From Thermaceae bacterium (GTDB lineage Bacteria > Deinococcota > Deinococci > Deinococcales > Marinithermaceae), in NCBI GenBank assembly GCA_027067955.1, contig JAMOUW010000079.1, forward strand, positions 1 through 64,000: a DNA stretch of 64,000 nt. Direction: 5' to 3'. The notes beneath the pieces were generated by a model. The model was not told the DNA's origin. It saw nothing but the letters and a program-made list of their open reading frames with translations, and ran no database searches. A program made the position numbers and the translations under genes. Shown here one piece after another: positions 8,062-29,401 of this stretch (positions within the stretch are counted from its first letter, which is position 1; each line of letters opens with the position of its first letter).

Positions 8062-8781
8062 CTACACAACTCCTTTCAGTAGCAGCAGTCCTTCAAGGGC
8101 CGTTTCTATCATGCGGTGCACTCCCTGCCGCAGGACTTCTTCTTCGATGAACTCGGTGTCGCCTATCTGGTTGGAAACCGTCAGCAATGCTCCGGCATGC
8201 ACTCCTCTCATTTTGGCGATGAGAAACAGTGCCGCAGCTTCCATTTCGAAAGCCATTACTCCAAAGCGGTTCCAGGAGCGTGCGCTTTCGGGATTGGTAG
8301 CGTAAAACGCGTCTTCGGTGGCGATCAGGCCCACGTGGTGGGGATTGCCCGAGGTCGCCGCCGCTTGCTCCAGGGCTTTGAGTACCGGCCAGCTGGGGAT
8401 CGGGGCGTAGGGTTTGTTCTCCAGGTACTGGCGGGTGGTGCCGTCGAGCGGAACCGCACCCTGCACCACGAGGAGATCCGCGGGGGAAAGCGCCGGGTCC
8501 ACGGCGCCGCTGGTGCCGACCCGTACCAGCACCCGCGCCCCCAGCTGCACCAGTTCTTCGGCCACTATCGAGGCGGAGGGGCAGCCCATGCCGGTAGTTT
8601 GTACGCTAACCGGCAAACCCTTGTAACTTCCGGTAAAACCGAGCAGCGACCGGTAGGTGTTGTATGTGGTGACGTCGTCAAGGAAATTTGCGGCGATATA
8701 CTCGGCCCGCCCCGGGTCTCCGGGTAGCAGGACGAAAGGTGCCAGGTCGTCGGGCCGGGCGCGTACGTGTAAAGGGCTCAT
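8062..8781 (-). CDS. purine-nucleoside phosphorylase, DeoD/UDP-type fold
   Basis: MSPLHVRARPDDLAPFVLLPGDPGRAEYIA...GASGMGCPSASI-like TTGMGCPSASIVAEEL...AFEMEAAALF. Confidence 0.85.
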   Translation of the reverse strand: MSPLHVRARPDDLAPFVLLPGDPGRAEYIAANFLDDVTTYNTYRSLLGFTGSYKGLPVSVQTTGMGCPSASIVAEELVQLGARVLVRVGTSGAVDPALSPADLLVVQGAVPLDGTTRQYLENKPYAPIPSWPVLKALEQAAATSGNPHHVGLIATEDAFYATNPESARSWNRFGVMAFEMEAAALFLIAKMRGVHAGALLTVSNQIGDTEFIEEEVLRQGVHRMIETALEGLLLLKGVV

Positions 8782-24046: not shown

Positions 24047-25684
24047 TTAAGGGTTCAACCTCAGCGCCAGCAGGTCCAGGTCGCCGTCTTTGCTGGTCGT
24101 GTAGCCAATCACCACTATCCTGCCGTGAGGGTCAAGACCTACTTCGAAAGCGCCGTCAGTGCCGGTGTTGCCGGTGCCGCCGTCGTAGGCGAAAACGCCG
24201 TTTGTGCCAAACTTGCCGTCGAGGCTGCCGTCGGGGTTCAACCTGATGACTATCAGGTCTTCGCCCCGGCCGGAGAAGAACGAGCGCCCGGCGACGATAA
24301 TACGCCCTTTTCGATCGGCAACCACGGAGAACGCCCGGTCGCTGCCGGCGTGGCTGCCTCCGGCGACCTTGTCGAGTGTTACGGTGCCGCTGCTGCCAAA
24401 GTTTTCGTCCGGGGTGCCATCTGCCTTTAGCTTCTCGACCACCAGGTCGTAGTCTTTGCCGTTATAAACATAGCCGGCGAGGTAGAAACCGCCGTCATTG
24501 CTGGGGGTGATCGAACGGACGCGACCGCCCACGGTGCCGTCGCTGAAAGCAGTCAGGCCGCCCCAGTTGCCGAGGTTCATTTGGGCGTCGATACTTACGA
24601 ATAAGCCTTTTCTGTTGTTGCTGGTGTCGATGATTTCGCCGCCGCCCATATAGCCGCTGCTGTTGGCGGCCAGCGAATAGAGCGCATCGTATTTTTGCTT
24701 GCCGTCCGAGGCTACCGTGTCTAGGGCACCATTGCTCTTGAACCTGGCTATTATGAACTGCTCGGTCACGTTGGTGTCTTTGAAGCTCATGCCGCTGACC
24801 AGGAAGCCGTCCTTGACAGGCAGCAGCGAGTATCCCCGGTCGTTACCGTTGCCGTTCCCTCCGGCTAGATTGTCATGAGTAATTGTGCCGTTGCTGCCAA
24901 AACCGCTATCCAGGCTGCCGTCGGGGTTGAGCCGTGCGAGCAACAGGTCGTCGTTGTTGCTATTGTACGAATATCCGGCGACTATCAACTTGCTACTCGG
25001 GGTGATGGCCATAGCGCGGTCGAAGTCGAATTCCCGGGTGTCGTAGCTCAGCGGCCGCAGGTCGCCCAGAACGGCGACCCCGGTATTGTTGGCGAAGCTG
25101 GCTTCAAATTTGCCGTCCCCGTCGAGTTTGCAAACTACCAGTTTGTCATTGCTGCGGCCTAGGACATACATGACGTTGTCGCCGAACGCCAAACTGTAAG
25201 CTACATCGTCCTTGCCCTGTGTTTGCGTCAGGTCTTTTACCACCGTTATGCCGCCGGTGCCAAAGCTGGTGTCGAGGGTGCCGGCCGGTGGGACGATTTT
25301 GATTCCGAAGCCAATGGCGTGTTCGATCTTGCCGGACGAGAAAGTCAGCGTGGTGTCGTAATCGCCAGGCGGGGCGGTATCGCTGGCGCTGATGGTCAAC
25401 GTGAAGTCCGCTTTGTTGCCGGATACCGTCAGCGTGGTTGGTTTCAGGGTTATGCCCTTTGGCAGGTCGTTTCCGTTTGCCAGACGGGCGGATACCGTTA
25501 TCTCCCCCTTGAAACCGCCAGAGGGCACGATGCTGATGCCGACGCCCCCGCTGTCTCCCTGGTGTATTTGAATGCTTGATGCCGAAGGCACTATTTTGAA
25601 GTCTGGTTTTTGTTTTTGATTGCAGCCGACGAAGTAGAGGGCTAGTGCCAAGAGCAGGACCGATTGGACGATCTGCTTTAGCAT
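24047..25684 (-). CDS. lipoprotein with N-terminal Ig-like segment and delta-60-type beta-propeller repeats
   Basis: MLKQIVQSVLLLALALYFVGC lipobox; repeats GTLDTSFGTGGITVV, GSLDSGFGSNGTITHD, GTPDENFGSSGTVTLD, GSLDGKFGTNGVFAYD; GGAGGTG SD. Confidence 0.85.
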   Translation of the reverse strand: MLKQIVQSVLLLALALYFVGCNQKQKPDFKIVPSASSIQIHQGDSGGVGISIVPSGGFKGEITVSARLANGNDLPKGITLKPTTLTVSGNKADFTLTISASDTAPPGDYDTTLTFSSGKIEHAIGFGIKIVPPAGTLDTSFGTGGITVVKDLTQTQGKDDVAYSLAFGDNVMYVLGRSNDKLVVCKLDGDGKFEASFANNTGVAVLGDLRPLSYDTREFDFDRAMAITPSSKLIVAGYSYNSNNDDLLLARLNPDGSLDSGFGSNGTITHDNLAGGNGNGNDRGYSLLPVKDGFLVSGMSFKDTNVTEQFIIARFKSNGALDTVASDGKQKYDALYSLAANSSGYMGGGEIIDTSNNRKGLFVSIDAQMNLGNWGGLTAFSDGTVGGRVRSITPSNDGGFYLAGYVYNGKDYDLVVEKLKADGTPDENFGSSGTVTLDKVAGGSHAGSDRAFSVVADRKGRIIVAGRSFFSGRGEDLIVIRLNPDGSLDGKFGTNGVFAYDGGTGNTGTDGAFEVGLDPHGRIVVIGYTTSKDGDLDLLALRLNP

Positions 25685-25968
25685 TGTTACACCTCCATCA
25701 AAAATGATAATCAATGGGTGCCACAATCTTGGTTTAGATCCGCCGCCAGGAAACGCGCTTGTGCGGCAAGGGGCTTGCGAGTCTGACGGACCTGCACCCG
25801 ACAATTCCGAGGGGGCTTCGGCTAGACCTGCAGCCCCCGCCGGGATGGCGAACATCCGTTCGCCGGTTCAGCACCCGGTCTTCGGGGGCGGCTATGGCAT
25901 GCGGGTGTCTGCCCGTTCCCTTCCGGGCGCCCTGAGGCGGTTGTCTGTGCGCTGTCGCTATGCGGGGA

Positions 25969-26154
25969 TCAACGGAGATAACCGGGGGCTTCAGGAAAGC
26001 GATCGGAGAGGTAGCGATAGAGTGCTTCCCAGGATGCGAAGCTAAGTTCATCCCGGTTGCGCTCGCGGAAAAGGATGCGCAAGGGTTTGAAGGGCGCTTT
26101 AAGGACCCTGATTTCGAACACCCATTCTTCAGTTCGAAGATCGGATCGCTCCAT
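25969..26154 (-). CDS. small hypothetical protein (61 aa)
   Basis: MERSDLRTEEWVFEIRVLKAPFKPLRILFRERNRDELSFASWEALYRYLSDRFPEAPGYLR; TAACCT-N6-ATG start context. Confidence 0.55.
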   Translation of the reverse strand: MERSDLRTEEWVFEIRVLKAPFKPLRILFRERNRDELSFASWEALYRYLSDRFPEAPGYLR

Positions 26155-26160
26155 GTTGAC

Positions 26161-26194
26161 AGGTTAGCGGGCATGCGTCACAAAAGCGTCACAA
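26161..26194 (-). promoter_or_regulatory. putative SARP-type promoter: TTGTGACGC direct repeats (11-bp period), 8 bp from -10 TAACCT
   Basis: + strand GCGTCACAA at 26175-26183 and 26186-26194; -10 complement(26161-26166); ATG complement at 26154. Confidence 0.5.
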
Positions 26195-29100
26195 GTCCCA
26201 GACCGTGCGCCAGACGAAGGTTGTGGTAAAGATGCGCCGGTACCTGGAAGGCAAGGCGTCGAGCTGCTTTTGCAGGTGCTGGCGCGCTTCATCGCGCCAG
26301 CGCGCACCCTTGGGGTGATGGCGGGCGTAAGCAGCCCAAACCAGAGGCAGGTCGGGAACGCCGACCGGCCAGTCACGGCTTGCACGCAGGGCTTCCGCGC
26401 TCAACCTCCGGGCCAGATCGTGCTGGCGGGCGTCCGCTGCAGCCAGAGCCGCATGCGCCAGGCTCCGGGCCAGGTGGCCGTGTTCATTCCTTGCCTTCCA
26501 GTGGCGCGCAGCGCGCCGGAACCAGTGCAACGCTTCGGTGGGTTCACCGCGTCGCAGGTGCAGGTAGCCGCGGGTGTGGTAGGTATGACCCAGCTTGGCC
26601 TGATCTCCTATACGCTGCTGTACTTCCAGGGCCTGGTCGAGGTCGCTGACGGCGCTTTCGAAATCTCCCAGCTCTATGGCCGCCCAGGCCCTTTCCGATT
26701 GCGCTAGGGCGGCGTCTTTCTCGAGGTGCAGTTCCCCGGCCCGCTTCACCGCAGCGTCGAAGGCGCGGAAGGACGCTTCGTTGTCACCCAGCTTGAGCGA
26801 AGACAGCCCTTCGAGCTCCAGGGCATCCAGCTCGCCGCCGAAATCGCCTGCCTGCCGGGCAGCTCTGCGCAGGCTGTGCGCCTCTTCCAGTGATCGCAGG
26901 TATTCGCCCCGCAGCCACCAGCCCGTGGCCCTGTCGGCGCGGATGCGCAAAGCGAGCACGGTGTCGCCTACCGCGTGAGCTTCGGCCAGCGCGCGGGATT
27001 GTAGGGCGTCTCCTTCGGTTTTGTCGCCCAGCCGGTAGTAGAGGGCGGCCAGATTTCTCAAAGTGCGTGCGACTCCCTGCCGGTCGCCGATTTGCTCGTA
27101 GGCGTCGAGGGCCTGCTCCAGCTCTGCAAGCTGGGCTCCCGGGTCACCATGGCGGTAGTAGGTCCAGGCAAGAATGAAGTGCGCGCGCGCCTGGCAGGCC
27201 CGGTCACCTGCGCGCAAGGCGCGGGCCAGGCCCGCCTGCGCCGAGGAGAGCGCACGGGGGTAATCGCCGCGCTGGAGCAGGGCTTCGGCAAGCAGCAGCC
27301 GGGGGCGGGCCCCGCCGTCCATGCTGAGCTCGCGGAGGCGTTCCAGCTCGTTTTCGCCGAGCCTGCCCAGCCGGATTTCGAGCTCGAGCAGGTCCAGCTC
27401 TGCCCGGGAGCTTTCCTCCGGGTCCAGATTCTGTGCAAACGCAAGGGCTCTTATGAAATACGCGCGGGCGGAGAGCGGTTCGTTTGCAGCGCTGCGGGCT
27501 GCGGTGAGGAAACCGCGGGCGGCACGTTGGGGTTCACCAGCTTCCTGCCAGTGCTCGGCGGCTTCCGCCAACCTCCCCTCATCTTCGAGGGACCGGGCCC
27601 AGGCACGGTGGTACGTACGCGCCAGAGAGGGGTTGAGCGTTTCCATCACCAGCGTCCGCAGGTGTTCATGGGCTGGAGTGTAGCCCCCCGCCAGGGCCGC
27701 CGCGAGCTGGCGTTCGCGCAGCTCTTCGAGATACTGCGCGGCCTCGAGCGCGCGAATCCCCAGAACGCGCCCGAGATCCTCAGCGGGAACGGGTCGGCGT
27801 GCCACGCATATCATTTCCAGGGCATGTCTAAGCGGGTTGTCCAGGCTTTGCAGCCGGGCCCAGAGCGTCTCCCTGATGCTGCGCGGTATCGGCAGCTCGC
27901 GGTAGTCCTCGGTGGTGCGGTCGTAGGGGGTTGACCAGCCTTCGGTGCGGTGTCGCAGCTCCCCGCGCGCAAAGAGGTGCCGCAGGGTTTCCAGAATGAA
28001 GAAGGGATTTCCACCGGTAGCCGAGTGCAGCCTCCGGGCGAAGAGGCGCGCGCCATAGCGCTGGTGGGCCAGGCTTTGGATGAGGGCGTGCACCGCCTCC
28101 TCCCCGAGCGGGGGGACCTCCAGCCGGATTATGTCGTTTTCGAGAGGGGCCAGCCAGGAGGCTGCGGGACCGGGAGGAAGGGGTTTCCTGGCGGTGAGCA
28201 CGAGCTGGGTTCCGGCGCGTTCGGCCATCGGCAGCAGGTGAGCCAGCAGCTCGAGGCCCGCCGGGTCGGTCCACTGGAGATCGTCCCAGACCAGCACCGG
28301 CCCGGCCAGGGCCAGCAACACCCGGCTCACGCCCTCCAGGAATCTGGCTCGGTCCGCCGCGCCCTGCAGGGGGCGCTCCGAAGCGGGCAGGAGGTGCGGC
28401 AGCAGGCGCCCTGCTTCGCGCAGCCATACCGGGTCGAGATCCGGGACGCCCTGGGCGTTGATTCCCTGCTCGAGCGCCCGTGTCAGCCCGGCGAAAGGCA
28501 GGGAGCGGCTGGACGCCGGGTGATCTATCGCCAAGCGGCCGCCACTCCTGGCCTGATGCTCCCGGGCGAGCCGCGTTTTACCGCTGCCGGCGTCACCCAG
28601 GAGGATAACCGGGCGCGGTCGCAAGCGACCCATTTCTTCCAGCAGCCCTTCGCGCCCCACCAGCGGGGGTTTGGCGAGCGTTTCCGGAACCGGTGCGGAG
28701 GAGGGCCGGCTGGGCGTTTTTTGTTCTTTCAGCTGAAGAAAAAGCCGCTCGGTTTCCGGATCCGGTTCCAGTCCCAGCTCGCGCTCCAGGCGGCGTTTGT
28801 AAGTCAGGTACACCTGCTCTGCTTCGTCCCAGCGGCCGGAACGGGCCAGCAGCCAGAGGATGCGGCGGTGGGCTTCTTCATGAAAAGGATCCTCGGACAG
28901 CACCCGTTCCCAGAGTTGCAAAGCCTGTTTTTCCCGGCCGCTGGCTTCGCGTTGAAGCGCGAGGCGCGACAAAACCATGACCAGCCGTCCCTGCCAGTTT
29001 TCCCTTTCCAGAGCCAGCCAGTCTTCGAATACCTCCGCGCCCTCGATGCTGAAAGACTCCATGAAGGTGCCGCGCCACAAAGATGCCGCTTTCTTCCAGG

Positions 29101-29401
29101 AGCCGTCTTCCAGCGCTTCGAGAAATTCTCGTGCATCGCTGCCCACGCCGCTTAGTCCTACCTGCTCTCGTTCGACGCGGAGATGGCCTTTTAGCGGGGT
29201 CTTCTGCAACCGGTATAATTCCTGCCTCAGGCGGTGGCGGGCGGTTTTGTCGGGGGCATCCCATAGCAGCGCAGCCAGCTTGTGGCGCGGTTGCGGTCCC
29301 GGATGCAGCGTAAGGTAGGCTACCAGGGCCAAGCTGCGCAGGGTCGGTAAATGTACCCGCACCCCCGCGCACCACAGCTCGGGCGGCCCGAGCAGCAGCA
29401 T
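26189..29401 (-). CDS. SARP/BTAD-family transcriptional regulator with AAA ATPase and TPR repeats
   Basis: MLLLGPPELWCAGVRVHLPTLRSLALVAYLTLHPG...ELYRLQKTPLKG wHTH; BTAD ...RLERELGLEPDPETERL; GDAGSGKTRLA Walker A; C-terminal TPRs; the ORF could start upstream to 29488. Confidence 0.88.
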   Translation of the reverse strand: MLLLGPPELWCAGVRVHLPTLRSLALVAYLTLHPGPQPRHKLAALLWDAPDKTARHRLRQELYRLQKTPLKGHLRVEREQVGLSGVGSDAREFLEALEDGSWKKAASLWRGTFMESFSIEGAEVFEDWLALERENWQGRLVMVLSRLALQREASGREKQALQLWERVLSEDPFHEEAHRRILWLLARSGRWDEAEQVYLTYKRRLERELGLEPDPETERLFLQLKEQKTPSRPSSAPVPETLAKPPLVGREGLLEEMGRLRPRPVILLGDAGSGKTRLAREHQARSGGRLAIDHPASSRSLPFAGLTRALEQGINAQGVPDLDPVWLREAGRLLPHLLPASERPLQGAADRARFLEGVSRVLLALAGPVLVWDDLQWTDPAGLELLAHLLPMAERAGTQLVLTARKPLPPGPAASWLAPLENDIIRLEVPPLGEEAVHALIQSLAHQRYGARLFARRLHSATGGNPFFILETLRHLFARGELRHRTEGWSTPYDRTTEDYRELPIPRSIRETLWARLQSLDNPLRHALEMICVARRPVPAEDLGRVLGIRALEAAQYLEELRERQLAAALAGGYTPAHEHLRTLVMETLNPSLARTYHRAWARSLEDEGRLAEAAEHWQEAGEPQRAARGFLTAARSAANEPLSARAYFIRALAFAQNLDPEESSRAELDLLELEIRLGRLGENELERLRELSMDGGARPRLLLAEALLQRGDYPRALSSAQAGLARALRAGDRACQARAHFILAWTYYRHGDPGAQLAELEQALDAYEQIGDRQGVARTLRNLAALYYRLGDKTEGDALQSRALAEAHAVGDTVLALRIRADRATGWWLRGEYLRSLEEAHSLRRAARQAGDFGGELDALELEGLSSLKLGDNEASFRAFDAAVKRAGELHLEKDAALAQSERAWAAIELGDFESAVSDLDQALEVQQRIGDQAKLGHTYHTRGYLHLRRGEPTEALHWFRRAARHWKARNEHGHLARSLAHAALAAADARQHDLARRLSAEALRASRDWPVGVPDLPLVWAAYARHHPKGARWRDEARQHLQKQLDALPSRYRRIFTTTFVWRTVWDL

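Follow-up and report, generated by a model that had tools for sequence, protein, structure and literature searches.

A direct repeat at the stop codon of a large SARP regulator as the probable operator of a small-protein gene and of scattered lipoprotein genes in a Thermaceae bacterium

The direct repeat that overlaps the stop codon of a large SARP gene in the window, the whole stretch of 64,000 nucleotides that was analysed, is very probably the operator of that SARP, which appears to switch on the adjacent gene of a 61-aa protein and, from further sites of this kind, ~10 lipoprotein genes elsewhere in the genome. From sequence comparison, we infer that the regulator binds the repeat and activates transcription. 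On the minus strand, positions 26194-26175 read TTGTGACGC-TT-TTGTGACGC, followed by 8 nt (ATGCCCGC), the hexamer TAACCT, 6 nt (GTCAAC), and the ATG (26154) of the 61-aa ORF. The first half-site (26186..26194) is found at this position in each of the six members of the genus and contains the stop codon of the SARP gene (TGA, 26191-26189), the second (26175..26183) lies exactly 11 bp after the first, and the putative -10 element TAACCT (26161..26166) lies 8 nt past the second. Both the layout and the position of the stop codon match the preliminary description of the locus exactly, and the 20-mer pattern, with up to three mismatches allowed, occurs once in the window compared to 0.02 expected matches. 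That description had relied on the period, the offset, and the neighbouring regulator, and had proposed to look for the 61-aa ORF and the repeat downstream of orthologous SARP genes. These three features and the 61-aa target are conserved across the genus; every species of the six has one site across the stop codon of the SARP gene, with the 61-aa ORF behind it. Known SARP operators are direct repeats at 11 bp with the 3′ repeat ~8 bp from the -10 element (PMC10936776). The heptameric repeats of small SARPs and SARP-LAL regulators of Streptomyces (PMC5930380) show the same period and distance, the general rule being that of PMC10936776; these proteins are cluster-situated antibiotic regulators, unlike the present one, and for them the literature consulted reports neither a conserved small partner nor an operator at the 3′ end of the gene.

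The regulator (26189..29401, minus strand; ~1070 aa) has an OmpR-type DNA-binding domain followed by BTAD, AAA/NOD, and TPR parts. Its product matches the Pfam families BTAD (1.3e-17), AAA_16 (8.9e-16), and TPR_12 (2.2e-19); the winged helix is not recognised by Pfam by itself. A profile of the orthologues matches the AfsR structures 8jke and 8k60 over residues 2-229 (E 5e-15, whole chain) and also EmbR (2fez), which upholds the earlier assignment of the neighbour as a SARP/BTAD-AAA-TPR protein. Of the coordinates 26189-29401 first given for the gene, the stop is retained, and the start should probably be moved 6-7 codons upstream of 29401, where no stop interrupts the frame as far as 29488 and a start at codon -7 is available in relatives.

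The strongest reason for assigning the repeat to the SARP is that the residue covarying with the operator agrees independently with a base contact of AfsR. Among clusters of regulators, which share ancestry and are not fully independent by descent, base 4 of the operator follows residue 60 of the SARP: Q is paired with T (22/22), K with G (3/3), and R with C in seven of nine clusters, two R60 clusters (L165 and L171, the latter with a repeat of 12-bp period) having been entered by hand, while V is found with mixed bases. Residue 60 ranks first of 240 SARP-domain residues for covariation with base 4, with a z of 13 compared to 5.3 for the runner-up. It is still first (z 8.7) once the stop-overlapping repeats are removed, on which ground stop-codon overlap alone was rejected as the source of the T4 signal. 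In a HMMER alignment to AfsR, residues 59, 60, and 64 correspond to R87, T88, and R92; in the cryo-EM structure of AfsR, the residues named as touching bases are T88 and R92 (PMC10936776). The equivalent of R92, R64, is invariant in 13 SARP orthologues, and the equivalent of T88 in the window SARP is a different residue, Q60. The base touched by T88 is one position off the covarying base in the register used here, and a simple code is broken by two of the nine R60 clusters and by the V60 class. Collectively, it could be deduced that SARPs differ in their half-site letters and that residue 60, in the recognition helix, is the main determinant of these letters.

Tandem 11-bp repeats before other genes, for which the preliminary description had suggested a search, were indeed found, nearly all of them before lipoprotein genes. 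The own genome (1.94 Mb, 78% complete) was searched, as was all genome-wide work, by pattern; it holds 11 places with up to three mismatches, 10 of them in a promoter-like layout, and none in the reversed-pattern control. One of the 11, with three mismatches, is probably due to chance. In the genus, each of six genomes has 5-10 sites (up to two mismatches) and controls of 0, and most other genera have few sites or none above control. The aligned genus sites read TTGTGACGc-NN-TTGTGACG, and in 43 of 48 the top-ranking -10 hexamer begins at a distance of 9-10 nt from the end of the 19-mer repeat, giving a layout of a 22-bp box (2 x 11 bp), 6 bp, and the -10 element. The operator also precedes ~10 other genes per genome. 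Of the earlier proposal of an autonomous regulator-target module, we keep the view that the site most plausibly belongs to the SARP, whereas "autonomous" has to be dropped. A strict lipobox is found at 39/48 target starts, compared to 13/234 background ORFs of the same loci, and two further targets (L083 and L051) are lipoproteins by eye, for a total of 41/48. The 61-aa gene is the target at six promoters, one per species (five by script plus that of the window, where the script picked an overlapping ORF), and a single target, L043, is neither a clear lipoprotein nor the 61-aa gene. With targets so rich in lipoboxes, the regulon looks like a lipoprotein regulon. The start codon of the lipoprotein targets usually lies ~33 nt after the repeat and is preceded by a Shine-Dalgarno sequence. 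Ten target proteins were scanned and contain Big_5, FG-GAP, DUF5122, and carboxypeptidase-regulatory-like domains, several being without a family; phosphate-uptake families are matched by none of the ten.

These targets bear on the idea that the repeat belongs to an OmpR/PhoB-type response regulator, with the SARP as an incidental neighbour. Response regulators of this type also bind 11-bp direct repeats through an OmpR-type winged helix, at promoter-overlapping PHO boxes in the case of PhoB and PhoP, and the half-site spacing is equal for the two families. Moreover, PhoP and AfsR boxes overlap at the afsS promoter of Streptomyces (PMC6988585). However, the box tracks SARP genes and no response regulator, being present where every orthologous and many a paralogous SARP gene terminates, and its letters follow the recognition helix of the respective SARP; the targets are lipoproteins, and among those inspected or scanned none resembles a Pho-regulon protein. 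We regard this explanation as improbable and retain the adjacent SARP as the most likely owner of the operator.

The 61-aa ORF (25969..26154, minus strand) belongs to a SARP-linked family of small proteins ending in G-(Y)LR. Its substitutions between the window and G001 are distributed over the codon positions as 15/14/37, and dN/dS is ~0.05-0.15 among close relatives; judged by these comparisons, it is a real gene under purifying selection. The AlphaFold model has a β-β-β-α arrangement (pLDDT 81), no solved structure resembles it below E 0.001, and no Pfam family was found for the ORF. In the window and in many relatives, the start codon lies exactly 6 nt past the -10 hexamer and no Shine-Dalgarno sequence is present, from which a leaderless mRNA is predicted; the gene is probably leaderless. 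Leaderless TANNNT genes are common in Deinococcus-Thermus (PMC12340547); their -10 element lies a few nt before the start codon, and in this the 61-aa gene resembles them. The present promoter differs in its additional, predicted activator operator, and the lipoprotein targets differ in having a leader and a Shine-Dalgarno sequence. The next gene downstream (24047..25684, minus strand) encodes a lipoprotein with DUF5122 repeats, and in G005 a related lipoprotein gene comes after the 61-aa gene; it is a candidate second gene of a shared transcript. Homologous small ORFs follow SARPs in 25 of 83 further loci, Burkholderiales included. By analogy with AfsS, the small protein might have a feedback or co-regulator role.

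The arrangement appears to recur, with matching changes in protein and DNA, across Deinococcus-Thermus and in some Betaproteobacteria. In g2, the sister genus, the SARP gene terminates inside GTRACG repeats, the next gene encodes a homologue (53-59 aa) of the 61-aa protein, and each of four genomes has 6-9 exact GTRACG sites before lipoproteins (controls 0). In Meiothermus, RTAACG repeats and a lipoprotein come after the SARP. RTAACG sites also precede other lipoproteins and the small-protein gene, which is unlinked to the SARP yet retains its operator, although at one mismatch the counts are just few-fold above control. Similar repeats occur at or just past the SARP stop in Burkholderiales and Rubrivivax (L168, L169, L175, L180, and L183), where small ORFs of the 61-aa family follow some of the SARPs. 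The Betaproteobacterial variant TTGCAACG has only the SARP-adjacent site and weak matches in the L175 genome, and is single-copy in G028 besides one match with three mismatches. For the variants TTGGAACG and AGCAACG of family f5, sites are few per genome and some are no better than controls, so that no large regulon is claimed for them.

Of 58 further large SARPs in the order, 25 have ACG repeated at exactly an 11-bp lag near the stop (positions -40 to +60), as do 11 of 423 control stops; other lags account for 0-3 of the 58, and a clear ACG repeat is absent at the stop of 33. These counts speak to a reading that treats the stop-overlapping repeat as an RNA element, or as arising by chance from the context of the stop codon, with no role as a DNA operator. 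Since T[GA]ACG half-sites hold a stop codon, some overlap is to be expected. Against this reading stand the excess over control stops, the survival of the residue-60 code without stop-overlapping repeats, and the intergenic location of most sites, in promoters that belong to other genes. In addition, no Rfam match to a structured RNA was obtained at or around the site, and no terminator-like site was found in 25500-26400. This reading is extremely improbable, and a DNA operator of the SARP is preferred.

A second large SARP, ~34% identical, is present in G001 (L051) and G002 (L056). Its stop lies inside AAACGCTGC[TG]GTAACGC and is followed by its own 59-aa small protein; the operator at this stop is AAACGCTGCTGTAACGC, and V60 is found where the first SARP has Q60. 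A variant box, TTGTGACGGT[CG]TTGTGACC, lies ~660 bp from the start of the second SARP in both genomes, and separate GTAACG-type sites in G001 (L254 and L269) precede lipoproteins. This suggests two parallel SARP circuits in one genome. It might also be supposed that two SARPs, or the SARP and a response regulator, compete for shared boxes, as AfsR and PhoP sites overlap in Streptomyces (PMC6988585); the second SARP with its variant box and GTAACG-type sites would supply such a competitor in G001 and G002. However, this SARP has its own stop operator and a different residue 60, and the TTGTGACG class is uniform. Competition of this kind is compatible with an operator of the adjacent SARP, and we consider it unlikely rather than implausible.

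In Streptomyces, afsS lies next to afsR, and the system involves phosphorylation by AfsK-type Ser/Thr kinases and control of antibiotic clusters. The closest known counterpart of the present locus is found there: in Streptomyces coelicolor, the large SARP AfsR activates the gene of a 63-aa protein (PMC10936776, PMC6988585). The two regulators share the SARP, AAA/NOD, and TPR architecture, both promoters have two 11-bp direct repeats over the -35 region, 6 bp, and the -10 element (PMC10936776), and both target genes encode a protein of ~60 aa, here adjacent to the regulator, the likeness being one of size and place. The present system differs in phylum, in half-site sequence, in the residue at AfsR position 88, in the overlap of the operator with the stop codon of the regulator, and in a main regulon of lipoproteins instead of antibiotic regulators. 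We propose that two SARP protomers would bind side by side, one per TTGTGACG half-site, on a box overlapping the -35 region, and would bring RNA polymerase to the -10 element that lies 8 nt further on, in the manner of AfsR at afsS. An inducing signal may be read by the AAA/TPR part. The target at the locus would be the small protein, whose mRNA is probably leaderless, and the other targets would be the ~10 lipoprotein genes round the genome, all of which have their own copy of this promoter.

The half-site contains T[G/A]A and can therefore double as the stop of the SARP, so that the probable operator of the regulator forms the 3′ end of the regulator gene. More generally, we find it rather likely that the large SARPs found outside Actinobacteria constitute a self-labelling family of ancient origin. 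In such a family, the operator would overlap or immediately follow the end of each regulator gene, its variable base would be determined by one recognition-helix residue (AfsR position 88), and the usual partner gene would encode a small protein. If this is true, the DNA specificity and the regulon of SARPs could be read from sequence alone in Deinococcota and parts of Betaproteobacteria. To our knowledge, work on SARPs has dealt almost exclusively with the switching of antibiotic production in Streptomyces. In the present thermophiles, which belong to a different phylum, SARPs seem to control surface lipoproteins, and the promoter geometry is unchanged. With operator and regulator in one gene, a large number of specificities can be taken from genomes together, and this exposed a simple amino acid-base code at a position already known from structural work to touch DNA. 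SARP specificity and the role of an AfsS-like small partner thereby become directly testable. Our literature search found no paper describing SARPs in Oceanithermus or Meiothermus. In the same phylum, Deide_19260 of Deinococcus deserti is a SARP of receiver-SARP architecture whose targets are stated to be unknown (PMC3564903).

Several further observations were made at these loci. Three half-sites in a row at an 11-bp period (TGGTGGCGC, TTGTGACGC, and TTGTGACGC) occur in G003 (L082, 3630-3660), and the SARP-adjacent repeat TTGCAACGC of Meiothermus rufus (L171, ~8240-8290) has a 12-bp instead of an 11-bp period. In Meiothermus taiwanensis (L110/L174), the region past the SARP stop looks interrupted and a clear operator is absent; the next ORF resembles an insertion-sequence protein. 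In Meiothermus-like genomes (L117 and L122), RTAACG repeats and a -10 element lie just upstream of AAA-type genes starting with MVRL[ED][ST]TD, possibly SARP-derived ATPases without the DNA-binding domain. SARPs with A/V59-Q60 (L210, L214, L216, and L221), one from a Thermus-family genome, have GTCATCC-type 11-bp repeats at the stop rather than ACG-type ones, forming a second operator class. Finally, tiny lipoproteins of ~50 aa with the motif C-NPAVFDN..C.FDD....FGP (L159, L160, L162, L164, and L269 of G001) form a recurring, unnamed family directly downstream of SARP operators or GTAACG-type sites.
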